Shown here: positions 27,358 through 43,259 of the stretch, in pieces
Position numbering within the stretch: position 1 is the stretch's first letter
How the letters are laid out: each line of letters opens with the position of its first letter
Source of the DNA: Enterococcus wangshanyuanii
GTDB taxonomy: Bacteria > Bacillota > Bacilli > Lactobacillales > Enterococcaceae
Assembly (NCBI RefSeq): GCF_002197645.1
Contig: NZ_CP021874.1
Span: forward strand, 186,001 to 250,000
Length of the DNA stretch: 64,000 bases
Direction: 5' to 3'
Made by a program: the position numbers and the translations under genes
Notes under the pieces: model-generated
What the model was told of the DNA's origin: nothing
Databases searched by the model: none
Seen by the model: the letters and a program-made list of their open reading frames with translations, nothing else

Positions 27358-28110
27358 CTAAAACCCAGTTAAAAAATATGGAACAATAATGAACTGCTGA
27401 ATCGCAGTCAAAACCAACAAATGAACGGGATAAAACCAATAAAAAAAATACTTCATTTGTCGTCCACGCTGCCCATTATAAAAATAAATCAACGGAAAAG
27501 CCATAATACCAAATAAACTATTTTGTAAAATTACTGCTCCGCCGAATAAACATTTAAGTAGTTTGTGATTTCTAAAAATATACAAGACCACAATCAATAA
27601 AACACCGATCCAGCCACCATAATCTGTATGTAGCCATTCAGCTGAAAAAATCCCACAAATAATAAGAATACCTGAAATAAGATACCCTTTGATCGAACGG
27701 CTTTGACACCGTCTTAAACCAGCTATAACGAGTAAACCGATCAATAAGGTAAAAAAGACATTCTGACTTTGCCAATCAAACCATTGTTTAGAAAAAGCAA
27801 GATCATAAGGAATTTCAGAAAGAAAAGCAAACAAAAGTAAACGTAAACCATAACGTGTAACATTTGACGTATGAATAAATCCTTGAACCAGCAAAAAACA
27901 AAATAAAGGAAAAGCTAGCCTGCCGATCATAATAAAAATAGGAAATAATACTTTCGTAGTTTCTGCCATTATAGAACTGTCTGTAGTATAAGGGACAGAA
28001 GAGGAAATATACAGATGAAATGAAATGATTTTTGCTGTATGATCCATCAACATTGAAATAATCGCCAGCCATTTCAATTGACTACCTGTAAAATAGGCTC
28101 TACTTTCCAA
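27358..28110 (-). CDS. TraX-family integral membrane protein
   Basis: 250 aa with about eight hydrophobic segments. The TraX family pattern is visible: a near N-terminal SQLKWLAIISMLMDHTAKII with the conserved MDH, then IGRLAFPLFCFLLVQGFIHTSN and LRLLLFAFLSEIPYDLAF. TraX was first described as the F-pilin acetylase; chromosomal Gram-positive relatives are probably membrane acyltransferases of unknown target. It is convergent with groEL and divergent from the recombinase segment. A candidate promoter at 28452-28480 reads towards it through the left inverted repeat. Confidence 0.82.
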   Translation of the reverse strand: MESRAYFTGSQLKWLAIISMLMDHTAKIISFHLYISSSVPYTTDSSIMAETTKVLFPIFIMIGRLAFPLFCFLLVQGFIHTSNVTRYGLRLLLFAFLSEIPYDLAFSKQWFDWQSQNVFFTLLIGLLVIAGLRRCQSRSIKGYLISGILIICGIFSAEWLHTDYGGWIGVLLIVVLYIFRNHKLLKCLFGGAVILQNSLFGIMAFPLIYFYNGQRGRQMKYFFYWFYPVHLLVLTAIQQFIIVPYFLTGF

Positions 28111-28339: not shown

Positions 28340-28348
28340 TGTTATAAT
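28340..28348 (+). promoter_or_regulatory. Candidate extended -10 promoter reading into the invertible segment
   Basis: TG-T-TATAAT at 28340-28348, no good -35. It lies 27 bases outside the left inverted repeat and points towards the recombinase gene in the present orientation. The surrounding 28111-28374 is very AT-rich and holds no gene. Confidence 0.4.
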
Positions 28349-28374: not shown

Positions 28375-28402
28375 TTTCTTGAATGTATCAGGTATAAGAA
28401 AA
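28375..28402 (+). repeat. Left 28-bp inverted repeat flanking the recombinase gene
   Basis: Perfect complement of 29949-29976. The core reads TTTCTTGAATGTATCAGG, then TATAAGAAAA. Within it TTTCTT and AAGAAA form imperfect inverted arms around a central GTATCAGG-like spacer, the layout of a tyrosine recombinase core site. A partial copy (ATGTATCAG) lies just upstream at 28359-28367. Confidence 0.85.
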
Positions 28403-28451
28403 TATGAAACGGTTAATCAATAACGCACAAGTCAATTTCAACTACTAATTC

Positions 28452-28480
28452 ATTCTATCTTAAAAAAGATAAGCAGTCTA
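28452..28480 (-). promoter_or_regulatory. Candidate outward promoter inside the left end of the invertible segment
   Basis: On the minus strand TAGACT (28480-28475), 17 bases, TAGAAT (28457-28452). The spacer holds a TATCTT/AAGATA dyad that could be an operator. It now reads left, towards the TraX gene. After inversion it would read right, towards the regulator and surface-protein locus. Confidence 0.4.
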
Positions 28481-28664
28481 GATGAAAAAGATCATTTTTC
28501 TATCATATTTTTATGTAAATTGAGAAAAAAATGAGAAAAGATTCAAACAATTTGGTGTTAAAAAATTAAAAAACAAAGGTTTAGATGGTTATTGTTTTAT
28601 TTTTATTGAAATTAACTTACTCATACTTATTATTTTATCAAAAAAGAGATAGGCATATATTTTT

Positions 28665-28686
28665 AAGCCGTCAAATAAGCCGTCAA
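28665..28686 (+). repeat. Left pair of arm-type direct repeats
   Basis: AAGCCGTCAA occurs twice with a 12-base period (28665-28674 and 28677-28686), just before the recombinase start. A related pair is at 29888-29907. Candidate binding sites for the recombinase N-terminal domain. Confidence 0.6.
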
Positions 28687-28710
28687 TTTTTTTCAGAGAG
28701 GGTGTCGCAA

Positions 28711-29826
28711 GTGAGTAGAAAAGGTGAAAATATATATAAAAGGAAGGATGGTAGATGGGAAGGTAGATATATTAAAGCAAGAAACGAACAAGGAAAGATT
28801 ATATATGGCTATATCTATGGAAAAAAATATTCTTGTGTCAAGAAAAGACTTGCTGAGTTGAAAGTTCAATATTCTTTCACGCACAATAATCTCAGTTTAT
28901 ATAAAGGAAGTGTGGAAGATTGGTTAAATCATTGGTTGAATGTCGTGATGAAAAAGAGAATAAAGCAGTCGACTTACATAAGCTATCGTTTGCGGATCGA
29001 CAAATACATTCTTCCTGCTTTGGGAAATCGTGCATTAGTACAACTAAAAAGTCGTGAAATAGAGGAATTCGTTAATTATCTGATTCAATTGGACTTATCA
29101 TCTTCAACCATTCATTCAATAGTGACTGTGTTAAAAAGTGCATTGGGAAGAGCATACATTGAGAATTGCATTTTAGTAAATCCATGTAAAAATCTCTCAT
29201 TATCTTCCACAACTACTAATGAGATATCTGCATTAAGTTTGGCTGAACAAGAGAAAATAGAAGCGATTGCATTAAAAGAGAAAGGAAGCTCTGCAGTTAT
29301 TTTAGCTCTATATACAGGCTTAAGAATTGGTGAAATAAGTGGACTTCAATGGAATGATATTGATTTTGAAAAGAACATTATACACATTAGACGAACATTG
29401 TATAGAATTCCTAGTGTGACAAATAAGAAAAAGACTGAGGTTATTTTGGCAGAGCCCAAAACAAAAAGCTCTAAACGGTTGATTCCTTTAGCAGATAATT
29501 TGAAAAGCTACCTATTAAATAAAAAAAAAGAACGAACCTCTGAATATGTCATTTCTTGTAAGGGTAGCTATGCTGAACCAAGGGTGATCAGCTACCGTTT
29601 TCGAAAAACCATAGAAGAAGCCGGGATCAAATCGATTCATTTCCATGTTTTAAGGCACACTTTTGCAACAAGATGTGTGGAACGCGGTATCGATATTGCG
29701 ACTTTAAGTAAGCTTTTGGGACATGCGTCAATCAAGTTGACCTTAGATACCTATACAGATTCACTGTGGGAAAATAGAAGAGAAGCTGTTTCCATACTAG
29801 ATAAACAATTACAGGAGTTACTTTAA
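28711..29826 (+). CDS. Tyrosine recombinase/integrase (candidate DNA invertase)
   Basis: 371 aa from the GTG at 28711 (protein MSRKGENIYKRKDGRWEGRYI), preceded by GAGAGGG; the 42 codons upstream overlap the arm repeats and are hydrophobic, so are unlikely to be used. It has an AP2-like arm-binding N-terminal domain as in Tn916-type integrases, a SAM-like core-binding domain (about 65-150), then the catalytic domain with Arg in LYTGLRIGEISGL, Lys in EPKTKSSKRLIPL, HVLRHTFATR, LGHASIKLTLDTY and the nucleophile Tyr. All six catalytic residues appear present. No excisionase, relaxase or phage gene accompanies it. The gene sits between perfect inverted repeats, which argues for inversion, not excision. 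Confidence 0.85.
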   Translation: MSRKGENIYKRKDGRWEGRYIKARNEQGKIIYGYIYGKKYSCVKKRLAELKVQYSFTHNNLSLYKGSVEDWLNHWLNVVMKKRIKQSTYISYRLRIDKYILPALGNRALVQLKSREIEEFVNYLIQLDLSSSTIHSIVTVLKSALGRAYIENCILVNPCKNLSLSSTTTNEISALSLAEQEKIEAIALKEKGSSAVILALYTGLRIGEISGLQWNDIDFEKNIIHIRRTLYRIPSVTNKKKTEVILAEPKTKSSKRLIPLADNLKSYLLNKKKERTSEYVISCKGSYAEPRVISYRFRKTIEEAGIKSIHFHVLRHTFATRCVERGIDIATLSKLLGHASIKLTLDTYTDSLWENRREAVSILDKQLQELL

Positions 29827-29866
29827 AAAAAGAAGCTAACAAAGATACTTTGTTAGCTTCTTTTTC
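29827..29866 (+). terminator. Terminator after the recombinase gene
   Basis: AGAAGCTAACAAAG and its near-complement TTTGTTAGCTTCT form a long stem immediately after the stop, followed by TTTTTC. It insulates the right side from recombinase transcription. Confidence 0.85.
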
Positions 29867-29887
29867 TATGCAGGAAATTCATTTTTT

Positions 29888-29907
29888 AGCCGTCATAAAA
29901 TGGTCAA
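29888..29907 (+). repeat. Right arm-type repeats
   Basis: AGCCGTCA at 29888-29895 and a degenerate copy (TGGTCAA, 29901-29907) 12 bases later, in the same direction as the left pair. The surrounding bases (T run, AGCCGTCA, GTCAATT, TTTTTTCA) align with 28660-28694. A further GCCGTC lies outside the right repeat at 30015-30020. Confidence 0.5.
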
Positions 29908-29948
29908 TTGATTTTTTCAAGTGTATAGCAATAAGACCTGACAGTGAT

Positions 29949-29976
29949 TTTTCTTATACCTGATACATTCAAGAAA
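29949..29976 (-). repeat. Right 28-bp inverted repeat flanking the recombinase gene
   Basis: Perfect inverted copy of 28375-28402. It lies 196 bases upstream of the regulator gene at 30172, and the sequence between is AT-rich leader with no other gene. Confidence 0.85.
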
Positions 29977-30171
29977 TTAATTTAAGCCAAATATTTATTA
30001 TAAAATCAAAATTTGCCGTCGATATAAATTCATTCGACCACTAATGAATTCACTTATCGTTATTATAATCGCAAATCAATTTTTTCTAAACTTTAAGGCT
30101 TCAAATTTAAAAGAAATATTGTTTAAAAGAAAAAAGTAAATCAACAAATGATGGTGAGGAGGCTTCGGGAA

Positions 30172-30894
30172 ATGTACACAATCGGCTACATTTCATTAAA
30201 TGGGGAGTTAAGTGAAAAGTACAAAGAATTTCTTCATATGTTTCAATGCGACATTCAATTAATAGAAAAAGAAACGATTGATCAGTTCCTTCAAGGAAAT
30301 GCTGAACCAATTAAACGACTAGATACATTAATTATCGAGGATATTGATTTTTCTAGTATCAATTGGATTTGCGGATTGATTATGGAGATACGAAGACAAA
30401 CAGATTTACCATTGTGGATTCTTACGTCTGTCAATGAATCCAATAAAACCAATCGTATTGTATATCTACAATTGGGCGCTGACGGAATCATTGATTATAA
30501 CAAGGATCTAGATGAGTCAATATTAACTGTGAAGAACCTAATAAAACGTTTTAAAGAACCTCAGACACAAATAAGCACACCAAAAAATTCTCTCATTCGA
30601 GGTGTAAAAGATTTTCAATTAAATCCACAAAACTTGAGTGTTTGTTTAGAAGACGGCAAGGAAGTAAATCTAACGAAATTAGAATTTCTTACGATTGAAT
30701 ATTTACATAAACATGCACGTAAAACAATGACATATGAAGAAATCTATCAAAACGTATGGAATGATACCTATGGAAACAGAAAGTATCGGGTTTCTAATTT
30801 AGTCTTTCATTTAAGAAAAAAAATCGAGCACGATATCGAAAAACCACAGTACATCAAAACAATTCGTTCGAAGGGTTATATGTTATACATTTAA
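30172..30894 (+). CDS. Orphan winged-helix regulator with pseudo-receiver domain
   Basis: About 240 aa. The N-terminal half has a receiver-like alpha/beta pattern (YTIGYISLNGELSEKYKEFL, DTLIIEDIDFSSINWICGLI, LPLWILTSV, YLQLGADGIIDYN), but no clear phospho-acceptor acidic pocket, so it is probably phosphorylation-independent. The C-terminal half is an OmpR/PhoB winged helix (VNLTKLEFLTIEYLHKHARKTMTYEEIYQNVWND through YIKTIRSKGYMLYI). No histidine kinase gene is nearby. I use the ATG at 30172, with GAGGAGG upstream; the ATG at 30148 has no ribosome binding site. It is the first gene between the invertible segment and the surface-protein operon, and so the probable local activator. Confidence 0.85.
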   Translation: MYTIGYISLNGELSEKYKEFLHMFQCDIQLIEKETIDQFLQGNAEPIKRLDTLIIEDIDFSSINWICGLIMEIRRQTDLPLWILTSVNESNKTNRIVYLQLGADGIIDYNKDLDESILTVKNLIKRFKEPQTQISTPKNSLIRGVKDFQLNPQNLSVCLEDGKEVNLTKLEFLTIEYLHKHARKTMTYEEIYQNVWNDTYGNRKYRVSNLVFHLRKKIEHDIEKPQYIKTIRSKGYMLYI

Positions 30895-31150: not shown

Positions 31151-32482
31151 TTGAAAAAAACACACGTATTGAAAAAAAGTTTGTTTGCTTTAGCAGCAAC
31201 AGCGACACTAGGAGCGGTGGTATTAACAGTACCAACACCAATTTCAGGAAGTCCGGTAGTAGCATACGCGGCAGAAGAAACTGCGGAAGTATCAACAATT
31301 GCCGAATTTGAAGCAGCGTTACAAAATCCTGCAGTTACAGTTATCAATGTAAATCAAAGTATCCAATTCAGAAAAAATATCACAAATATTCCAAATCGTG
31401 ATCTAACGATCAATGGTAATGCGGATAAAGGTGTTGTGATCAACTCAGCACACAATTCTATCTATGGTAAACAAAATACTAAAGGCACAAATCTTGTGAC
31501 GATCACAAACTCAAATATTGTTGGTGCTGACAGTGACGGACGTTTCTTCACCGGAGGATCTGGTAACGGACCTTCAAGCTATGGATGGGATGTTCTAGCA
31601 AAAGATGTCACTTATACTGGTGCTCGTTTTGTTCACCTTAGTGAAGGGAAATTAACATTTGACGGAACAAACAATATCACGACTCGCGCAGAAAATGCTT
31701 GGGTTCACGATTTAGAATTTAAAGCAGGTTCAACATATAACGGAATCGCTGCTAACAAAGATCACGGACAATTCTCAGCATTCTACTTTAACGGAGCGTT
31801 GATCAAAGGAAAAGCAACTGGTGAAGCAATCATCGGTGACAATGCAAAAGTCAATGTAAAAATTGGTCCTCAAAGTGATGTGAACTACTACTATCCAGTA
31901 TTTTACGATAAAGTTCAAAAAGTTGATGTAGGTGCAAATGCTACTCTTGATGTTGATGCAGCAGGTGTTGCATTCCAATTTATTCCACGTGCAGATTACG
32001 TGAATAAAGTACCAACATTTAACTTAGCAGAAGGAAGTTCAGTTCACTTGAACGGCCGTGGCGGAGGAAACTACGCAACGATGAAACTTCAATATTACGG
32101 ATCAGAAGTAAATGTTTCTGAAGGCGCTGAATTAGTTGTAACTGGTAACAGCAAAAAAGCAGTTGTTGAAAGTGAGTATAAAGGCGCGGTAATCAACCTT
32201 AACGCTCCTGCTAATTTTGAAATTACAAACAAAAAACCAAATTCAAAATTATTCTATTCAACAAACACAACAATCAATGCTACTGATGTCAGCGAAATCG
32301 CAACATGGTCTCAAACTGGCGGAGAATATGAATACAAACCTGTCTATTTAGATGGCGGAAACTTCTCAGTTAACTTCGGTAAGATTTGTAACAGTAACAC
32401 ATTATCAACAACAGGAGATATTTCACCAAACTTCAGACTTGAAAATTATGGAAAAATTTCTCTAGTTGGTGGCGGAATCTAA
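31151..32482 (+). CDS. Secreted pectate-lyase-like (beta-helix) adhesin-type protein
   Basis: 443 aa. A signal peptide (residues 1-40, KKSLFALAATATLGAVVL, cleavage near VVAYAAEE) is followed by a region rich in short beta strands with repeated Asn/Gly/Val, typical of a right-handed beta helix: VTVINVNQSIQFRKNI, RDLTINGNADKGVVINS, DVTYTGARFVHLSEG and EVNVSEGAELVVTG. This matches the pectate-lyase-like adhesive domain found in WxL clusters. There is no sortase signal or evident WxL pair, so attachment must be indirect. Start: TTG with AGGAGG 6 bases upstream. Large secretion load and own terminators suggest strong expression. Confidence 0.75.
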   Translation: MKKTHVLKKSLFALAATATLGAVVLTVPTPISGSPVVAYAAEETAEVSTIAEFEAALQNPAVTVINVNQSIQFRKNITNIPNRDLTINGNADKGVVINSAHNSIYGKQNTKGTNLVTITNSNIVGADSDGRFFTGGSGNGPSSYGWDVLAKDVTYTGARFVHLSEGKLTFDGTNNITTRAENAWVHDLEFKAGSTYNGIAANKDHGQFSAFYFNGALIKGKATGEAIIGDNAKVNVKIGPQSDVNYYYPVFYDKVQKVDVGANATLDVDAAGVAFQFIPRADYVNKVPTFNLAEGSSVHLNGRGGGNYATMKLQYYGSEVNVSEGAELVVTGNSKKAVVESEYKGAVINLNAPANFEITNKKPNSKLFYSTNTTINATDVSEIATWSQTGGEYEYKPVYLDGGNFSVNFGKICNSNTLSTTGDISPNFRLENYGKISLVGGGI

Positions 32483-32494
32483 TTGGTCATTCAC

Positions 32495-32534
32495 TTGGCT
32501 GGCAAAAATAATGCCAATTAATTAGCCGTTTTTT
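32495..32534 (+). terminator. Hairpin with T run after the adhesin gene
   Basis: Nested stems GGCT/AGCC (32497-32500, 32524-32527) and TGGC/GCCA (32500-32503, 32513-32516), followed by GTTTTTTG. A probable, possibly leaky terminator. Confidence 0.55.
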
Positions 32535-32535
32535 G

Positions 32536-32610
32536 TTGGGGGGAACTTTCCGAACGACAAATTTTAGAAACAAAACGATTTAATTTGTCTCTTTGCGAAA
32601 GTTTCCCCAA
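32536..32610. repeat. Long imperfect inverted repeat between adhesin and WxL operon
   Basis: TTGGGGGGAACTTTC (32536-32550) pairs with GAAAGTTTCCCCAA (32597-32610), and GACAAATT (32556-32563) with AATTTGTC (32582-32589). The GC-rich base of the stem is unusual in this AT-rich region. It may protect the adhesin mRNA 3' end, or be a regulator site for the downstream operon. Confidence 0.6.
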
Positions 32611-32687
32611 CCTTGGTTTTTATTGAGCGAATCAAATCAAAAAGGTGCGTGAGTTGACTTAGTATATTTTGGTGAGGAGGTGGAAAA

Positions 32688-35141
32688 TTGAAAAAAATGA
32701 AACGAAGAATTTCTTTTATTATTGCTGCTTGTTTGGTTTTAGTTTGTGCTGGTTATATTGCTTCGGGAACGAATGAAAAAATTTCAGCTGCACCAGCAAA
32801 CTACAATGATATTTTATTAGCACCTGATGTGAATATTGTCGGTAGCTCAGGAACAGTATCTGAAATCCCGGGTGACTATGGGACGATGTTCAAATTGACC
32901 AAAGATACTAGCTATGAAGTGAAGGGCTTAAAAGATCCTGTCAACGATGTATTAGTGAAAACTGGTAGTGGCATCGATGACCCTAATGCTTCTAAAATAT
33001 TTAGATTTAGCCCAGATAACGTTGCAGAGGAAAAAAGTGTTTTAGTAAAAAATGCGGGACTTTACAACGGAAGAAGCATTGATTTAAAGCTAGTTATTGA
33101 TCAAATGTCACTTACGAAAAATGCAAACACTGGGAAATATCCCTATATGAACTTCATTGCTGTGAACTATAATGATCGGGACAAAGCAGATGATACAGCC
33201 AACGTAGCAATTAAGACGTGGGGAGCAATGTTTCTAATGCTTGGAAGCTCCAACAGAAGTGCTTCTGACTATTATGATACTTATGCCATTGGGGACAAAG
33301 TTCAATATCATTATGAATTTTATGACCATGAAACAAGCTTACCCATTGACTTTCAGGGAACGTGGAACTTTAACAATATCAATGGATTAAAAGCTGTTAC
33401 TACAGACTTTGATGATGATTTTAAAAAGCTCTATGTATTAGAAGACACGTGGATTGGCTATTTAAAGGATACACCAGCTGTAGGGAAGCTTGAGCTTTAT
33501 GGAACCAATTCGACGACGAACAGCCCAAGGAGTTTGCTGACTCAGCTATTCTCTGGACGTACATTCAACACAAGTATGGAACGTAGAGCTGCAACTACTA
33601 GTACAAATCCAGCGGCAATGGCAGTTATGTACGGGACTCAATCACTTGCGAGGATCGCTCCTGCTTCACCGATTGTTTACGGTATAAAAAATGAAGCAAA
33701 GCATACAGATACAGAGAATTATTTAGATCTTAAGTACTCCATTTTACAAACAATCCCTGATAATAAAGTTGAAAACAGAGACAACTCGTTTAAATTGGAA
33801 ACAGAGGTACCAAGTATCTATGATATCGATCTTTCTAAAGTGAAAGTACTTGAATATGGGACAGATACGGACTGGACAGGATTGTTTACTGTTGAAAAAG
33901 CTCCAGGAAACTCTAGTAAGCTCATTTTAACAGCCAACCTTTCAGATGCGGCATCTGCTGAAAATTTTAATGGAAAAGTTTTTGACATAAAGATTACGGC
34001 AAAGCCAAATGCGTCATTTAGTTTTGATAAGGCGAATGATTTATACGGTTATAAAGACAGTGGTGACGATAACGGTTACATGACATTTGAACTTGGTGGA
34101 CCTAAAACAAATGCATACTATACGTATAATACTGTCAACGGGAATGTATTAAGTGATACTTTAGAATCTAAAATAATCTCAGGGCAAACAATGTCTAAAG
34201 TTCTTTACGAAGGGAAACCTGATGCGGATCCCAAACAAAATATCAAAGTGCCGTTAGGAACAAACTTTACAACTGATTATCCGGATCCTGGAACATCATT
34301 TTTAGATAATATTCGAGTAGATACAGATAATCCTATTGATAAACCTGTAGCAGTTACTTATAAGCAACCATTGCCGAATACTTCGACTCTTGGGGAAGTC
34401 ACCTTGACCTTGACATTAACAACAGCTAAAGGTGTAACCAAAGATGTTCCTGTAAAAGTGACCATCGCTCCTACAATTGCCGAATTACGGGTTAAGTACA
34501 AAATCAACGGCAGTTACATGACCGATAAATATCCTGATTATGTCGATACGACTCAAATGATTGGAGATCCAATCAATTTGAAAAATATCAAATCAGTCAC
34601 GGATACGATTCAGGCCATTAAAGATGCTGGTTATGAACAAACCAATGCACCGGTCGAAGAATTTGTCCTTTCAGCAAGCGGTAATACGGTGGAATATGAA
34701 TTTGAAGGTAGACTATTTTTATCTTCAACACCAACTAAGCTAAACTTTGGGATCGAAGAAGTCAGCTATAAGGCAATTCGTGTAAACGAAGCAACACTTG
34801 ATAAAGCGTTGATCATTACAGATACAAGAGCCAGTAAACAAAAATGGACCCTTCAAGCTAAAGTAACGCAGGATTTCACTTTAACAGATACAGATGGTTC
34901 AAAAAAAGTTATTCCTAACATCTTGAGATATAACGATGGAACGGAGAATGAAAAGAGTTTCTTGTTGGATACTGCGCAGGATTTATTGACGGATACTCAT
35001 ACGACAAGTAATGAGTTTGATGTAAGTGGAACCTGGAATCCGAAAGGTAAAGGGTTCAAATTAGATGTACCTGCGGATACAGTGAAGAAATTTGGTAAAT
35101 ATCAAGCGACAATCGAATTTACAGTTGGAGAAACCCCGTAA
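32688..35141 (+). CDS. Large WxL-type surface protein
   Basis: 817 aa. It has a signal peptide (residues 1-34), then a long extracellular region without recognised repeats, and a C-terminal WxL-like domain beginning around GRLFLSSTPTKLNFGIEEVSY. The first motif is present (KWTLQAKV). The second, normally a TWxL near the end, is replaced by TIEFTVGETP. Such large proteins usually head WxL operons and are thought to bind peptidoglycan or partner proteins at the cell surface. Start: TTG with GGAGGTGG upstream. The next gene follows after 22 bases. Confidence 0.8.
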   Translation: MKKMKRRISFIIAACLVLVCAGYIASGTNEKISAAPANYNDILLAPDVNIVGSSGTVSEIPGDYGTMFKLTKDTSYEVKGLKDPVNDVLVKTGSGIDDPNASKIFRFSPDNVAEEKSVLVKNAGLYNGRSIDLKLVIDQMSLTKNANTGKYPYMNFIAVNYNDRDKADDTANVAIKTWGAMFLMLGSSNRSASDYYDTYAIGDKVQYHYEFYDHETSLPIDFQGTWNFNNINGLKAVTTDFDDDFKKLYVLEDTWIGYLKDTPAVGKLELYGTNSTTNSPRSLLTQLFSGRTFNTSMERRAATTSTNPAAMAVMYGTQSLARIAPASPIVYGIKNEAKHTDTENYLDLKYSILQTIPDNKVENRDNSFKLETEVPSIYDIDLSKVKVLEYGTDTDWTGLFTVEKAPGNSSKLILTANLSDAASAENFNGKVFDIKITAKPNASFSFDKANDLYGYKDSGDDNGYMTFELGGPKTNAYYTYNTVNGNVLSDTLESKIISGQTMSKVLYEGKPDADPKQNIKVPLGTNFTTDYPDPGTSFLDNIRVDTDNPIDKPVAVTYKQPLPNTSTLGEVTLTLTLTTAKGVTKDVPVKVTIAPTIAELRVKYKINGSYMTDKYPDYVDTTQMIGDPINLKNIKSVTDTIQAIKDAGYEQTNAPVEEFVLSASGNTVEYEFEGRLFLSSTPTKLNFGIEEVSYKAIRVNEATLDKALIITDTRASKQKWTLQAKVTQDFTLTDTDGSKKVIPNILRYNDGTENEKSFLLDTAQDLLTDTHTTSNEFDVSGTWNPKGKGFKLDVPADTVKKFGKYQATIEFTVGETP

Positions 35142-35163
35142 AAATTAAAGGAGAGACAAGCAC

Positions 35164-35502
35164 ATGACAGTAAAAAAAATGCGAGCAACTATTGTTCTAC
35201 TTTCCCTTGTTTTTATAGGTAGTTTCTTCATGCTGAAACCAGTAATGGTATATGGAGCAGAGGCTTCTGTGAAGACGAACGGAGAAATAGTTTTTACAGA
35301 GGAGAGTACGCCTCCAACATCTGAAACAACATCGTCTAGTGAAGAACCGACAAAAAAGCCGGCAGGAAAATATCCATCTACAGGAGAATTGATTCAAAAA
35401 AGCCTATCGGTTAGCGGAATTGCTGTTCTTATTTTTGCACTAGGTTTTTATCTAGTCAAAAGAAAACGAGAAGCTGCCAGAAAGGAAGGGTCTGATCAAT
35501 GA
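35164..35502 (+). CDS. Small sortase-type surface protein with YPSTG in place of LPxTG
   Basis: 112 aa. Signal peptide (1-32), a short Ser/Thr/Glu-rich stalk (45-66), then KYPSTGE (70-75), a hydrophobic segment (82-97) and a basic tail (KRKREAARK). This is the standard cell-wall sorting layout, but the motif leucine is tyrosine. Small LPxTG proteins are a usual part of WxL operons. It may be a poor substrate for the housekeeping sortase, be served by another sortase, or act as a membrane anchor. It overlaps the next gene by 4 bases. Confidence 0.8.
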   Translation: MTVKKMRATIVLLSLVFIGSFFMLKPVMVYGAEASVKTNGEIVFTEESTPPTSETTSSSEEPTKKPAGKYPSTGELIQKSLSVSGIAVLIFALGFYLVKRKREAARKEGSDQ

Positions 35503-36299
35503 AAAGAATGAGCTTACTGATGACTGCTTTTCTTGGTACTGTTCTCTTTTTTTCAGCTCAAATGGAACAAGCTCATGCAGAAGCTTCACGCAAAAGCGGA
35601 GCAGAAATCGGTTTGAGTCAATTTAAGGAAGAAGATTCTATTATTCGTGATCCTGAAAATCCTGATATAGAGGTCGATCCAGGCGAAACACCGCAAACGG
35701 ATGGTGATTTACGAATCGATTTTGTTCCAAAGCTAAATTTCAGCACAGTAAAAATAAGTAAAGAAGCAGCGGTTTATCCGATCAATGCACAACTGTTTCA
35801 CGGCGAAACTGGAGCGAGAGGAAATTTTATTCAAGTTTCCGATTATCGTGACAATCATTCAGGTTGGACATTACAGGTAAGACAAGAGGAACAATTTAAG
35901 CATGCAACGAAGGTTGGAGCTGAGCTAAAGGGAGCAGTGATTTCTTTTGACCAAGCTTGGACAAACTCGACTAAAGATGCATCTTTATCACCGTCAGTTT
36001 CCAAAGAAGTTATTCATATGAGTAACATTGGAGACACGTATAATCTTGCACAAGCACAGGACGAAAAAGGTTCTGGGACTTGGAGCATCATATTTGGCGC
36101 ATCAGCAGAAAATAAAAATGGGCGTCAAAATTCATTAGAACTGAGAAAGGATTCTTCAGGAAAGACGATTGAAGATCCAATCTTTAAAAAACCTGTGTAT
36201 AGTAATCAAGCGATTACACTAACTGTCCCTAAAGAGACAGAAAAAGAAGCAGGTGCTTACTCAACGGTGTTAACTTGGATATTAGCCGAGTTACCATAA
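35499..36299 (+). CDS. WxL domain surface protein
   Basis: 266 aa, the normal size of compact WxL proteins. Signal peptide (1-27, ending QAHAEA), a short acidic linker, then the WxL domain with both motifs: GWTLQVRQEE in the middle and TWILAELP at the very C-terminus. WxL domains attach non-covalently to peptidoglycan or to DUF916-type partners on the cell surface. It is translationally coupled to the gene before it. Confidence 0.93.
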   Translation: MKRMSLLMTAFLGTVLFFSAQMEQAHAEASRKSGAEIGLSQFKEEDSIIRDPENPDIEVDPGETPQTDGDLRIDFVPKLNFSTVKISKEAAVYPINAQLFHGETGARGNFIQVSDYRDNHSGWTLQVRQEEQFKHATKVGAELKGAVISFDQAWTNSTKDASLSPSVSKEVIHMSNIGDTYNLAQAQDEKGSGTWSIIFGASAENKNGRQNSLELRKDSSGKTIEDPIFKKPVYSNQAITLTVPKETEKEAGAYSTVLTWILAELP

Positions 36300-36328
36300 A
36301 TATACACAAAAACTAGGAGGAAATACAA

Positions 36329-37129
36329 ATGAAATTAACACACAAATTAGCTGGTACAGCTTTACTAGCAACATTGGCAGTAGTAGCAGCAGGACCGGCA
36401 ACTAAAGCGGCAGATCCAAACAAACCAGGTGTTGGTGAAGGAGAAATCGAATTCACAAGTAAAACGTATGAAACATACGATACTTCTGGTGTTGTACCAC
36501 CTAACACAGATAGCCAATCAACAAGAGATACTGACAGCACTGCATTATTAGATGGAGAATTTTTAGTACAAGGTATGTCTAAACTAGTCTTCAATTCACA
36601 AGCAGCAACAACTGGTGCAGTAACTTCATGGGCGAAACCAACAACAGCTAACCCATCTACAGCAGCTGACCACGTGCCAGCACGTGCTAACTGGGTTCAA
36701 TTCAAAGATGACCGTCAAACAGATGATCACACATACGAATTGACTGCAAAAATCACTAAAAACTTCCAATTCAATGATACAGCAAAAGGTAAAGTAAGAA
36801 ACATTACTGGTGCTGAAATCACTTATGGTAACCCAGTTTTAGTTGCTGATGCAGAAAATGAATCTTTAAAACCAAGTTCTACAGGAATCAAAACAGCTGT
36901 AGTAAACGAAACAACACCAGCTGCTGTATTTACAAATACAGATGGTACTGAAGCTAACGGATCTAAAGGTCGCGGACGTTATGCCGTTTACTTTGGTGAT
37001 GTGGATGATCCAGCTAAAAAAGCAGAAGAATCTGTTAAATTAGAAATCCCAGCAAACCAAGCACAAGAAATCATGAATGGTAAATATGTTGCTGAAATCA
37101 CTTGGACACTTTCAGAAACACCATTATAA
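36329..37129 (+). CDS. WxL domain surface protein
   Basis: 266 aa. Signal peptide (1-28, GPATKAADP), a Thr/Asp-rich linker, then a WxL domain. The C-terminal motif TWTLSETP is intact; the first motif reads YELTAKI, with Trp replaced by Tyr. AGGAGG precedes the ATG. It is 29 bases behind the previous WxL gene. The coding sequence uses many favoured codons (GCA, ACA, CCA), suggesting high expression, and is followed by a strong hairpin at 37182. Confidence 0.92.
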   Translation: MKLTHKLAGTALLATLAVVAAGPATKAADPNKPGVGEGEIEFTSKTYETYDTSGVVPPNTDSQSTRDTDSTALLDGEFLVQGMSKLVFNSQAATTGAVTSWAKPTTANPSTAADHVPARANWVQFKDDRQTDDHTYELTAKITKNFQFNDTAKGKVRNITGAEITYGNPVLVADAENESLKPSSTGIKTAVVNETTPAAVFTNTDGTEANGSKGRGRYAVYFGDVDDPAKKAEESVKLEIPANQAQEIMNGKYVAEITWTLSETPL

Positions 37130-37181
37130 GTTGAAATCAACAATTTAGGCTGGAACAGAAGCAGCACACTCTAAGAACAAC

Positions 37182-37223
37182 TTTCGATCAATCAGCTGAT
37201 CACGGTCAGCTGATTGATCGAAA
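37182..37223 (+). terminator. Strong hairpin after the second compact WxL gene
   Basis: TTTCGATCAATCAGCTGA (37182-37199) and its exact complement (37206-37223) form an 18-bp stem with a 6-base loop. No T run follows directly, though a second small stem (GGGAGC/GCTCCC) comes next near 37229-37246. It may stabilise the upstream mRNA or attenuate the downstream genes. Confidence 0.55.
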
Positions 37224-37387
37224 TATATGGGAGCTGCTTTTGCTCCCGCCATTTATTTCATAAGCACAGTAGTTTAGAGAAGTAACAATAATCAGGAAGT
37301 ATTTGTAACTAATTTTAACTATAGAAGTTGAGCATTTTTAGTCTTGGCTTATTGTAGTGATAGGACGAGAAAGGACAATCAAATCAA

Positions 37388-38461
37388 ATGAAAAAAAGAA
37401 TCAGCTTATGCCTAATGATAGGATTATACATAGTATCGTTGTTTGGCTTTGCCCTGCCTGCACATGCTGAAAAGCAGTTTGCCTATGAATCGATCATGCC
37501 GGAAAATCAACAAGGAGATGTGCAGTACTTCAATTTACGGATGAATCCAGGTCAAAAACAAACCGTTCAAATCATGCTTACAAACCGGGCAGATGAAGAA
37601 CAAACGATCACGATTGGATTGAATGGCGCTAAAACCAACTCAAACGGTGTGTTAGAATATGGCCCCTCTTCAATTAAAAATGATGCTTCACTTAAATATG
37701 ACTTCAAAGATATTGTAAAAGGCCCGACCGAAGTAACATTGGGACCAAAAGAAACTGCCCCTTTGAATTTAGACATAACAATGCCGGAAGCCGGTTATGA
37801 TGGTAAAATCGTTGGCGGAATTTATATGAAATCAAAACCAAGCAAAAAAGAGGAAGAAGAAAAGAAAAAAGCGACAGGTGTGATCAACGAATATGCCTTT
37901 GTAGTAGGGATGGTTTTGCAAGAAACAGATACAGCGATTACACCAGAATTAAAGCTGAATAGTGTCTCAGCAGGGTTATCAAATTACCGTAATAGTATTT
38001 TTGCCAACTTTTCGAATATTTCAGCAGATTTTGTCAGCGGAATGACTGTTGAAATGGAAGTGACGAAGAAAGGGTCAGAAGCTGTTCTTTACGACACTAA
38101 GCGTGCGGACATGCGTATGGCTCCCAACTCACTGATCGATTTTCCCTTAGAGATGAATGGTGATCAGATGGAACCCGGTGATTATAAAGCTCATATTCTG
38201 GTTACAAGCGGAGATAAAAAATGGACATGGGATAAAGACTTCAAAATCACAAAAGAAGATGCAGACAAATACAATGCGCAAGATGTGACGCTGATCCAAG
38301 AACGAGGAATCGATTGGAAGCTGATTGCGATGATCGCAGGCGGCGTATTTATTGCCTTCTTAGCAATTTTCTTCACTGTTAGAACAATGAATAATAAGAA
38401 GAAAACAAAGAAAAAAGGCAGCAAAAAGGGAGCAAAAAAGAAAAGAAAGAAGAGCAGCTAA
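37388..38461 (+). CDS. WxL-interacting protein with DUF916 and DUF3324 domains
   Basis: 357 aa. It has a signal peptide (1-27, PAHAEKQF), then DUF916 (about 30-150: FAYESIMPENQQGDVQYFNLRMNPGQKQTVQIMLTN, IGLNGAKTN) and DUF3324 (about 165-290: INEYAFVVGMVLQETDTAI, SNISADFVSGMTVEMEV, PGDYKAHILV). A transmembrane segment (about 314-334) and a Lys-rich cytoplasmic tail follow. In known WxL systems these two domains bind peptidoglycan and WxL partners, so the protein is the membrane base of the complex. Confidence 0.92.
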   Translation: MKKRISLCLMIGLYIVSLFGFALPAHAEKQFAYESIMPENQQGDVQYFNLRMNPGQKQTVQIMLTNRADEEQTITIGLNGAKTNSNGVLEYGPSSIKNDASLKYDFKDIVKGPTEVTLGPKETAPLNLDITMPEAGYDGKIVGGIYMKSKPSKKEEEEKKKATGVINEYAFVVGMVLQETDTAITPELKLNSVSAGLSNYRNSIFANFSNISADFVSGMTVEMEVTKKGSEAVLYDTKRADMRMAPNSLIDFPLEMNGDQMEPGDYKAHILVTSGDKKWTWDKDFKITKEDADKYNAQDVTLIQERGIDWKLIAMIAGGVFIAFLAIFFTVRTMNNKKKTKKKGSKKGAKKKRKKSS

Positions 38462-40655: not shown

Positions 40656-43259
40656 ATGAAGTATAAAGAATGGATCAAACATAAGGGCTGGGCATTTTTA
40701 TTGAGCATTCTTTTACCGATCGGCATTATGGGCTTTGTTTATTTTCTTCTAGGAATTTATCCAGGCAGCGAGAAAACGATTTTAGCTAGTGATGCTTTAT
40801 CGCAAACGTCTAATTTTTTTGCCAGTTTTAACAATGCTTTACATGGAAAACAGAGCTTTTTATATACGTGGTACGGTTCATTAGGGCTGAATTATTGGTC
40901 CTTTATGGCGTACTATATCAATGGCATTTTTAGTCCACTTGTTTATTTTTTTGATAACAGTCAAATACCGGACGCGTTATATATGATTCTTTTACTGAAA
41001 TTCGGTGCGATCGGCGGAACATTTTGGGTAATGAGTGACCGTATTTTCAAAATCCCCCAATGGAGCAAATTGATTTTGAGTGTCAGTTTTGCCTTAAGCG
41101 GATTTTGTGTTGCTTATTCTCCGCAGCAAATGTGGCTGGACGGGCTGATTTATTTACCGTTAGTTATTTTAGGGATTCACCGCTTGATGGATGAAAGAAA
41201 ACCGGCATTATTGTTTATTAGTTATTTACTCTTGTTTTTATCAAACTTTTACATGGCTTTCATGATCGGTGTCTTTTCTTTTCTATATGTATTTTGTCGA
41301 TTTATATTAGCACCGCAAATGTACAAAAAGTCGTTGATCACCTATTTGATCACTTCACTTTTAGCAGGCGGAGCTTCAATGGTCACTATTTTACCTACCT
41401 TGCTTGATTTGAAAAACAATGGGGAAAGCTTAACTAAATTAAGTCGTTTGTTTACAAATGATACAGGGATCTGGGACATTCCGGTTAAAACTATGGTTGG
41501 TGTCTATGATACTAGTAAATACGGCAGTGCGCCGTTTCTGTATTTTGGTTTATTAGGAACGATTTTTTGTCTTTTCTATTTTGTTAGTCCAAAAATAAAA
41601 TTGAAAAATAAACTCGTATACGGCAGTCTTTTTTTACTGTTGATCGCCAGTGTTTATATTGAGCCCATGAATCTATTTTGGCACGGATTCCATGCGCCAA
41701 ATATGTTTTTATTCCGTTTTAGCTTTTTATTTTCTTTTTTAGGCTTACTTCTAGCAGGCTTCGGACTGGAAAAAGTGACGAAAGAAGACGGCAATCGCAT
41801 ACTAAATATCGTTTTAGGTATCATTTTTCTTTATGTGTTGATTGTTTTCTTCGCAAATCGTAAACGGTACGATTTCTTAGATAAAAATGCTGTACTGGCT
41901 AGTGTGGTTTTTTTGATTGTTTACTTGCTGATTTTGTTGCTGAAAGATCGCTTTAAATCAAAGCAAGCGGTTTGGCTGCTGTTTTTAGTTGCTGTCTTCA
42001 TCGGTGAAATGACACTGAATGCTCAAAAATTAGTCGAAGGAATTGCAAGTGAGTGGCGTTATCCGGAACGAGTTGCCTACACTCAAAACTATGAAGATGT
42101 GCATCAATTAGTAGAATGGACCAAAGAGCAAAATGATACTTTATACCGCTTAGGCAATCTCAATAGTAGCTCAAGAAATGAAAGTTTTATTCATGGCTAT
42201 AGCGGTGTTTCGATGTTTTCATCGATCCGAAACCGTCACTCTTCGATGTATATGAATGAGTTGGGTTTTCGTTCAACAGGAACCAATTTGACGATCCAAT
42301 ATATCAATAACACGTTAGTGATGGATTCCTTGTTGGGAATCAAATACAATTTAGCGCAAAATGATCCTGATAAATTTGGCTTTACTCTTAAGAAAAAAGT
42401 CGGTAAATACGGCGTGTATGAAAATGAATTTGCTTTGCCTCTGGGTATGCTGACGGATAAAGGTATCTACAAAAAAGATGGGGTAAAAAATCAAACAGAG
42501 TTATTGCAATATTTATCTGGCGAAACGGATTCGTTCTTTTATTTTTCAGAAATCAAAACGCTCAAAGAAGAAAATGTTCAAGTCGAAGATCATGATTCTG
42601 TCTTATTTTACTCAAAAACAGTGCCTAATAAATTGCGGACATTAACTTATTCAGTCGATGTTCCTGCACGCTCGCAAGCCTATCTTAGCTTATACGGTCA
42701 GGGAACTGAAGTTGATGTCAAAATGAAAGTCAATGGCGTTGAAAGCTGGGCTGGTTTGGAAGGAACGGGGCAATATTATAATTTAGGGTACTATGATAAA
42801 GCTGAAACAGTAGAGGTCGAAGTAAGTTTCACAGGCGATCGGGTGGTCCATTTAGTGAGACCAAATGCGATGTTTATCAACGTTGATACGTTTAAAGAGG
42901 CGATTCAAAAGGTAAAGGAAAAAGAAGTTGCTTTTAAAACAGATGGACGTACCGCAGAGGCTAAGGTGAATTTAGATAAAGAACAAGTAGTCTTGACAAC
43001 GATTCCTTATGACAAGGGCTGGCAAGCTTACATTGATGGAGAAAAAGTGGCTATTCCAACCTTCAAAGATGCTTTTCTTGCGTTGCCAGTTGCCAAAGGC
43101 AGCCACACGATCAAGTTTGTTTTTGTTCCTCAAGGGCTTAAATTAGGAGCGATTCTTTTTGTCAGTTGTATTCTTCTTTTTATTTTCTATAACTGGTATC
43201 TAACAAGAAGGCAAAAACAAAGCGTAATAGTAATTGAGAATGGAGGGTACTATGACTAA
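40656..43259 (+). CDS. yfhO: YfhO-family polytopic membrane protein
   Basis: 867 aa with about 12-13 transmembrane segments, a large extracellular domain before the last (about 450-830), and the YfhO pattern near the N-terminus (ILASDALSQTSNFFASFNNALHGKQSFLYTWYGSLGLNYW) and LSGFCVAYSPQQMWLDGLIYLPL. The conserved aspartate lies in the first extracellular loop, as in GT-C glycosyltransferases. YfhO homologues decorate teichoic acids or glycolipids with sugars at the outer face. A final domain has YDKGWQAYIDGEKVAIP. AGGAGG precedes the ATG, and the stop overlaps the next gene by 8 bases. Confidence 0.88.
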   Translation: MKYKEWIKHKGWAFLLSILLPIGIMGFVYFLLGIYPGSEKTILASDALSQTSNFFASFNNALHGKQSFLYTWYGSLGLNYWSFMAYYINGIFSPLVYFFDNSQIPDALYMILLLKFGAIGGTFWVMSDRIFKIPQWSKLILSVSFALSGFCVAYSPQQMWLDGLIYLPLVILGIHRLMDERKPALLFISYLLLFLSNFYMAFMIGVFSFLYVFCRFILAPQMYKKSLITYLITSLLAGGASMVTILPTLLDLKNNGESLTKLSRLFTNDTGIWDIPVKTMVGVYDTSKYGSAPFLYFGLLGTIFCLFYFVSPKIKLKNKLVYGSLFLLLIASVYIEPMNLFWHGFHAPNMFLFRFSFLFSFLGLLLAGFGLEKVTKEDGNRILNIVLGIIFLYVLIVFFANRKRYDFLDKNAVLASVVFLIVYLLILLLKDRFKSKQAVWLLFLVAVFIGEMTLNAQKLVEGIASEWRYPERVAYTQNYEDVHQLVEWTKEQNDTLYRLGNLNSSSRNESFIHGYSGVSMFSSIRNRHSSMYMNELGFRSTGTNLTIQYINNTLVMDSLLGIKYNLAQNDPDKFGFTLKKKVGKYGVYENEFALPLGMLTDKGIYKKDGVKNQTELLQYLSGETDSFFYFSEIKTLKEENVQVEDHDSVLFYSKTVPNKLRTLTYSVDVPARSQAYLSLYGQGTEVDVKMKVNGVESWAGLEGTGQYYNLGYYDKAETVEVEVSFTGDRVVHLVRPNAMFINVDTFKEAIQKVKEKEVAFKTDGRTAEAKVNLDKEQVVLTTIPYDKGWQAYIDGEKVAIPTFKDAFLALPVAKGSHTIKFVFVPQGLKLGAILFVSCILLFIFYNWYLTRRQKQSVIVIENGGYYD

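Follow-up and report, generated by a model that had tools for sequence, protein, structure and literature searches.

The segment 28375-29976 is very probably an invertible promoter module that carries its own tyrosine recombinase and that is aimed at a transcriptional regulator and a WxL surface operon. It lies in the window, by which we mean the whole stretch of 64,000 nucleotides analysed here, corresponding to C1:186001-250000 in a five-contig genome of 4.16 Mb. The segment (1.6 kb) consists of one recombinase gene surrounded by exact 28-nt inverted repeats. The left recombination site, IR-L (28375..28402, plus strand), displays a dyad, TTTCTT...AAGAAAA, around the spacer TGTATCAGG, and the right site, IR-R (29949..29976, minus strand), is its inverted copy. 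The two 28-nt arms are 100% complementary, and about 1.4e-7 exact inverted pairs of this length would be expected by chance in 64 kb. Even when up to three mismatches are allowed, the repeat occurs at two places only in the whole 4.16-Mb genome, and the segment is single-copy. The original prediction had described exact 28-bp inverted repeats, a recombinase as the sole gene between them, and no excisionase. This description holds: the other ORFs of at least 25 aa either overlap the recombinase gene or correspond to one 37-aa TTG frame over a terminator-like hairpin, and none clear of the recombinase has the usual size of an excisionase. Conserved elements that had not been part of the prediction are an outward promoter motif, GCCGTCA motifs and the terminator-like hairpin itself.

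The recombinase ORF, as listed, extends from an in-frame ATG at 28585 to 29826. The likelier start is a GTG at 28711, preceded by GAGAGGG, giving a protein of 371 aa (28711..29826, plus strand). Directly 3' of the gene, the terminator-like hairpin (29824..29868, plus strand) has 21-nt arms, 95% complementary, and a 3-nt loop. The protein matches the Pfam families Phage_integrase (E 2.6e-29) and Phage_int_SAM_3 (E 3.2e-13). Across 48 relatives, R205, K250, R315, H338 and Y348 are invariant and H312 is nearly so. These are the catalytic residues, and the R-K-H-R-H/W-Y set of the lambda/Tn916/Tn1549 integrase class is complete, in agreement with the original claim of an intact enzyme. An AlphaFold2 model (mean pLDDT 87, pTM 0.66) starts with three strands and a helix, presumably the plan of an arm-binding domain. 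Residues 1-20 are by far the most conserved, with a mean majority frequency of 0.91; the corresponding values are 0.55 (residues 21-60), 0.47 (core-binding part) and 0.61 (catalytic part). The closest solved sequences and folds are those of the Tn1549 integrase, and full-length lambda Int can be aligned too. The three-domain plan, with its N-terminal sheet-helix domain, is thus shared with the integrases of Tn1549, Tn916 and lambda. However, these enzymes integrate and excise elements, whereas here the sites are inverted and there is no element.

This kinship nevertheless raises the idea of a degenerate integrative element, phage or Tn916/Tn1549-like, whose ends would be inverted by accident and which would no longer move or flip. 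Relatives of the recombinase do occur at 26-39% identity among the best 80 viral contigs and at 29-38% identity among the 15 phage records listed out of 127, and some family loci, enumerated below, score poorly for a site pair. However, the ends are inverted rather than direct, the segment has a single gene, and it contains neither cargo nor an ORF of excisionase size. Moreover, site spacers stay identical within pairs while species diverge, the neighbours are the same in all related loci, and sister modules do invert. A degenerate element is in our opinion most improbable.

On the right of the segment, the first gene of the controlled side encodes a winged-helix regulator (Trans_reg_C; 30148..30894, plus strand; probable start 30172). 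The surface operon (31151..38461, plus strand) encodes a pectate-lyase-like adhesin, a large WxL protein, an LPXTG protein of the EF2685/EF0750 family, a small WxL protein and a WxL-interacting protein, with a further ORF (36329-37129) between the last two. The divergent left neighbour is a TraX-family membrane protein (27358..28110, minus strand). Within the surface locus, 40656-43259 encodes a YfhO membrane protein with a below-cut-off match to a PgfM1-type glycosyltransferase, and the surface proteins of the locus may be glycosylated by its own products.

The relatives identified by sequence belong to Enterococcus species including E. termitis, E. caccae, E. moraviensis and E. ureilyticus. 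In 18/18 related loci fetched (recombinase identity 59-80%), the gene of the recombinase, that of the winged-helix regulator and the surface genes are arranged and oriented alike. In 11 of these loci, the divergent gene on the left encodes TraX; L139, among the other seven, lies near a contig end. The locus of E. crotali (L069/L151), one of the 18, has a broken recombinase frame and a 30-bp site pair that is still exact. A narrower set of 14 orthologous loci, window included, was defined by a recombinase identity of at least 64%. In this set, the two sites of a pair begin 326-347 nt ahead of the recombinase gene and 123-323 nt after it. Two apparent classes of site spacing (-340/+200 and -200/+340) were an artefact of contig orientation, the spacing being uniform once the loci were turned. 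The 9-nt spacers are the same within the site pair in 14/14 orthologs, whereas they agree between species in 46 of 182 comparisons, which suggests that the two sites of each locus evolve together.

Relatives of the recombinase, 6-13 per genome at E <= 1e-80, were found in 22/22 Enterococcus genomes examined; the window's own genome has 8, one locus being counted twice at the contig ends. We collected 154 recombinase units with their flanks and dropped 12 that shared 700 identical bp of the recombinase gene with another unit. The resulting 142 loci stem from the best 80 of at least 521 relatives and from stretches chosen among the matches listed. Orientation counts use 143 locus copies, L153 being added back. 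An inverted 28-nt site pair scoring at least 24/28 is present in 108 of the 142 non-redundant loci. When flanks of different loci were paired at random, 9/400 reached this score, and the sharing of sites between related loci probably accounts for some of these. A search within 600 bp left 24/142 loci below 22/28. Among these, L104 has an exact 32-bp pair beyond the searched distance, and L175, with GCCGTC motifs and a 14-nt pair, may have a site pair; in the other 22, no exact pair longer than 17 nt was found within 4 kb. The site-pair, GCCGTC and promoter counts given here are unrevised for the L104 and L175 pairs. In each of seven genomes, 4-10 site-flanked modules were among those fetched, and their cores are all distinct within a genome, bar one pair in G019. 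In the latter genome, L201 and L203, on two contigs, have the same 28-nt sites and could recombine with each other.

A homologue of the regulator adjoins the recombinase in 93 of the 143 locus copies; 49 copies are without it, and in one it is located elsewhere. The occurrence of site pairs scoring 24/28 or more follows this partition: they are found in 87/93 regulator-adjacent copies, in 19/29 loci that lack an adjacent regulator and have a right-hand gene in the same direction, and in 3/21 loci with no regulator and a right-hand ORF that is opposite or missing. The scanned downstream genes are mostly related to the cell surface or to export (WxL proteins, pectate-lyase-like adhesins, L-type lectins, GA/ChW proteins, pilins, SpaA). 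Exceptions are L129 (helicase-like), L084 (a DivIVA match below cut-off), L080 (a protein without a match) and L101 (an ABC transporter further downstream). E. raffinosus has one module ahead of accessory Sec genes and E. gilvus one ahead of a WxL cluster. Pilus tip genes in lactococcal-type genomes (L098/L104) carry the same kind of module, so that the switch is not confined to Enterococcus or to WxL loci.

These orientation data bear on the target of the module. The original prediction had left room for the TraX gene as the regulated partner. One may indeed envisage an inversion switch whose output would be this TraX-like left gene, or the recombinase itself, instead of the WxL operon: as sequenced, the promoter described below points at TraX, which shares its direction of transcription, TraX is a recurrent neighbour in the related loci (11/18), and a fixed promoter on the left would make expression of the recombinase orientation-dependent. 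However, over the 143 locus copies, the left-hand ORF is on the plus strand in 82, on the minus strand in 60 and missing in one, whereas the first right-hand ORF is directed away from the recombinase in 118. The partner that varies less is the regulator or surface operon on the right. The TraX alternative is weakened by these counts, and an output on the left is very unlikely.

The promoter on which control of the right-hand genes would depend, P_inv (28452..28480, minus strand), is a motif made of a -35 element TAGACT (28475-28480), a 17-bp spacer and a -10 element TAGAAT (28452-28457). As sequenced, it is directed to the left, away from the operon; after inversion, it would be directed toward the regulator. 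The match is moderate in the window (TAGACT-17-TAGAAT, score 9.5) and the motif is kept in 14/14 orthologs. Scoring used a simple, unfitted weight matrix. Between the left site and the recombinase start, the minus strand scores 10.74 versus 7.92 for shuffled sequences and the plus strand 7.14 versus 8.00. The other compartments are flat, bar the minus strand outside the right site (8.21 versus 6.93). The -10 of the outward promoter is located a median of 52 nt inside the site. A pattern picked after inspection of the matrix-scan results (T[TAG]GACN, 16-18 bp, TANNNT) retrieves an outward minus-strand promoter motif on the 5' side of the recombinase in 92/108 site-flanked loci, including the window, where 7.2 are expected from shuffling. 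On the plus strand of the same region it occurs in 2/108 loci, and in six other combinations of compartment and strand in 1-11/108. Upstream of the 24 site-less recombinases, it is found 4 times on the minus strand and twice on the plus strand, for 1.7 expected each. As judged from this motif, the segment has the layout of an inverton, with a pair of inverted recombination sites around an outward promoter.

Other promoter-like elements stand outside the segment. A fixed extended -10 element (TGTTATAAT; 28343..28348, plus strand) flanks IR-L and points into the recombinase as sequenced; its TGnTATAAT can be aligned in 13/14 orthologs. Beyond IR-R, a TATAAT element (30064..30069, plus strand), largely conserved in the alignment, is found ahead of the regulator. 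With such a -10-like element of its own outside the segment, the regulator may be partly independent of P_inv. Promoter-like elements that point left, immediately beyond the right site, occur in 11/108 loci versus 5.5 expected (TTTAGA-17-TATAAT in the window). They could serve the recombinase when the segment is flipped, contrary to the idea that flipping starves it. Finally, a conserved A+T-rich dyad upstream of P_inv (28493..28533, not assigned to a strand), read by eye in the alignment of the 14 orthologs, is a candidate site for the regulator or for an accessory factor.

Candidate arm-type sites were also recognized. Just 5' of the recombinase gene, two GCCGTC motifs are 12 bp apart (28667..28684, plus strand), and 3' of it GCCGTC is accompanied by TGGTCA (29889..29906, plus strand). 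Within 110 bp ahead of the recombinase, GCCGTC is present in 102/108 site-flanked loci versus 2/24 site-less ones, and within 260 bp behind it in 83/108 versus 1/24. In the reverse direction, the motif occurs in none of the 108 site-flanked loci ahead of the recombinase and in 3 behind it. The association of a constant motif and a constant N-terminus with private core sites and a variable core-binding domain suggests that universal arm sites are combined with private core sites across the module family. This idea leaves unexplained that the site-less recombinases have the same N-terminus.

Inversion itself was observed at sister modules. In the main contig, C1 (3,842,361 long), C1:1-40127 matches C1:3802241-3842360 with about 99.9% identity, few mismatches and some indels. 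This 40-kb match is probably an untrimmed circular overlap, and gene counts of this genome count the corresponding genes twice. Between the two end copies, a 1,560-bp segment, C1:18637-20196, is inverted. It carries a recombinase 51% identical to that of the window. Its sites are imperfect 28-bp repeats, TTTCTTATAACTTCTACTTGTAGGAAAA and TTTCGTATAACTTCTACTTATAAGAAAA in one copy, and their right halves are swapped in the other. This reciprocal exchange of site halves places the crossover inside TATAACTTCTACTT, which both sites share, and is the outcome predicted for conservative site-specific recombination. With a random join made during assembly, one would not expect both to be swapped. A second case, between two species, is the orthologous locus L163 (G001) and L187 (G017), where the flanks are in opposite order and the direction of the recombinase segment is kept; the flanks are 78-85% identical in long pieces, the recombinase segment 84%, and the breakpoints fall at the sites. 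Likewise, two GBS104-like pilus tip loci, L098 from a Streptococcaceae MAG and L104 from Lactococcus chungangensis, have flanks inverted relative to each other, the recombinase frame of L104 being split.

For the segment of the window, no inverted copy was found in its own genome or among the 18 related loci. This comparison of relatives, which had been proposed with the original prediction, goes against inversion of this particular segment. At one sister locus of the E. raffinosus megaplasmids, no inversion was seen among four strains, and at a second sister locus, well covered on the right side only, two strains agree. The predicted self-encoded switch for the right-hand surface locus is strongly supported by the site pairs of the family, by the promoter motif and by the inversions of sister modules, but not by any inverted form of the segment itself. 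One explanation would be an ancestral switch now locked in the sequenced orientation, with the regulator on its own fixed promoter. The uniform orientation of the related loci and the largely conserved TATAAT ahead of the regulator are in line with this view, and the broken frame in E. crotali indicates that locking can happen. However, in the window the recombinase frame is open with all catalytic residues, the 28-bp sites are exact and P_inv is conserved. In addition, the agreement of the sites inside each species implies that selection or exchange has continued. A locked switch is thus considered unlikely. More generally, the regulator-adjacent copies are in the orientation of the window in 91/93 cases and inverted in 2. 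The dominance of one orientation indicates that the ON state seldom occurs in the cultures that were sequenced, whether through biased recombination, selection, or a changed supply of recombinase after flipping.

Returning to a functional invertible module, the following mechanism may be proposed. The sequenced orientation would be the default OFF state, in which P_inv reads leftward and the terminator closes the recombinase gene. In this state, the recombinase would be made from the fixed left promoter. It would bind both 28-bp sites, and probably, by means of its conserved N-terminal domain, the GCCGTCA arm sites as well, and bring the two inverted sites into synapsis. Strand exchange inside the spacer would then flip the segment. 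In the flipped orientation, we infer that P_inv would read through IR-R into the gene of the regulator, at a distance of about 0.25 kb, and that the regulator would in turn activate the WxL surface operon. As the fixed left promoter would feed the recombinase in the OFF state only, the flip to ON may alter recombinase supply.

Several features of this module recall known switches. Hin is a serine recombinase acting with hix sites and an enhancer, and an outward promoter of its H segment drives the adjacent surface operon in one orientation. As in Salmonella Hin/fljBA, the recombinase gene is here enclosed in an invertible segment with an outward promoter. Unlike Hin, the enzyme is a three-domain tyrosine recombinase (Phage_integrase), present in several copies per genome with mostly private sites. 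Because the recombinase belongs to the tyrosine and not to the serine family, the module works like the Hin segment but is no member of the Hin family. In the fim switch, served by FimB and FimE, and in the tyrosine-invertase switches of Bacteroides, short inverted repeats allow promoter inversion at surface genes, and the recombinase genes are outside the invertible element. The type of recombinase is the same here, but its gene is inside the segment. One article reports that the Hin gene lies inside the segment that Hin inverts, that Bacteroides fragilis Mpi is a single serine master recombinase for at least thirteen regions, and that Clostridioides difficile RecV is a tyrosine recombinase inverting more than one regulatory switch (PMC5903667). 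The presence of many invertible promoters at surface loci of one genome is reminiscent of Mpi; unlike in that system, each module of the sampled genomes brings a recombinase of its own, and the cores are almost always distinct. Similarly, RecV acts on several switches, whereas each module here encloses its own recombinase.

The elr locus of E. faecalis resembles that of the window, being a surface operon of WxL, LPXTG and DUF916-type proteins with a positive regulator and poor expression in vitro (PMC4522977). Its regulator, ElrR, is Rgg-like (PMC4522977), whereas that of the window is of the winged-helix type. The available part of the same article describes no inversion at elr. A 2025 survey of gut invertons reports recombinase genes near invertons, and enterococci are absent from its main text (PMC11892184). 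No paper joining WxL loci and phase variation was found in the literature searched, as judged from titles and the beginnings of abstracts, a 2023 survey of programmed inversions being outside the scope of the search. The original remark that no description of the arrangement ahead of a WxL locus was known is in keeping with this search, and the modules are far broader than one locus.

It is tempting, although this goes well beyond the window, to imagine that enterococci possess an expanded, genus-wide set of private switches built on one recombinase template and biased by their arms toward OFF. This broad view is a tentative one. The template would perhaps combine a near-invariant arm-binding end and a universal GCCGTCA with a fast-evolving core-binding part and a private crossover site. 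With comparable reserve, asymmetric arms might bias an otherwise symmetric inversion, so that the loci would be mostly silent and would turn ON rarely and independently, resulting in combinatorial variation. If true, OFF-biased self-encoded invertible promoters would provide a direct and testable reason for the silence of WxL loci in the species that carry them, and enterococci would become a model for combinatorial surface phase variation. The roughly one hundred recombinases, each matched to sites that are mostly private, would then be at hand for studying how tyrosine recombinases change specificity, and the same set would be useful for understanding how arm sites bias the direction of inversion.

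Some further members of the family deserve mention. Twelve loci (L102, L105, L108, L109, L125, L130, L164, L172, L176, L188, L193 and L206) encode a family recombinase with an intact N-terminus and have neither site pair nor GCCGTC. Most of them are preceded by a gene of 403-420 aa and followed by a convergent one of about 500 aa, the latter being of the Mga type in L102, the only one scanned. These twelve recombinases are perhaps orphans acting in trans. On the E. raffinosus megaplasmids, the left flanks of L292 and of L294-L296 are about 99% identical and the recombinase segments only about 78%, as if the module had diverged or been replaced as a unit. Finally, a 41% relative with a 21-nt inverted pair (L298; E. 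faecalis LR962555.1) resides on a 73-kb plasmid typed as mobilizable, so that modules may travel between species.
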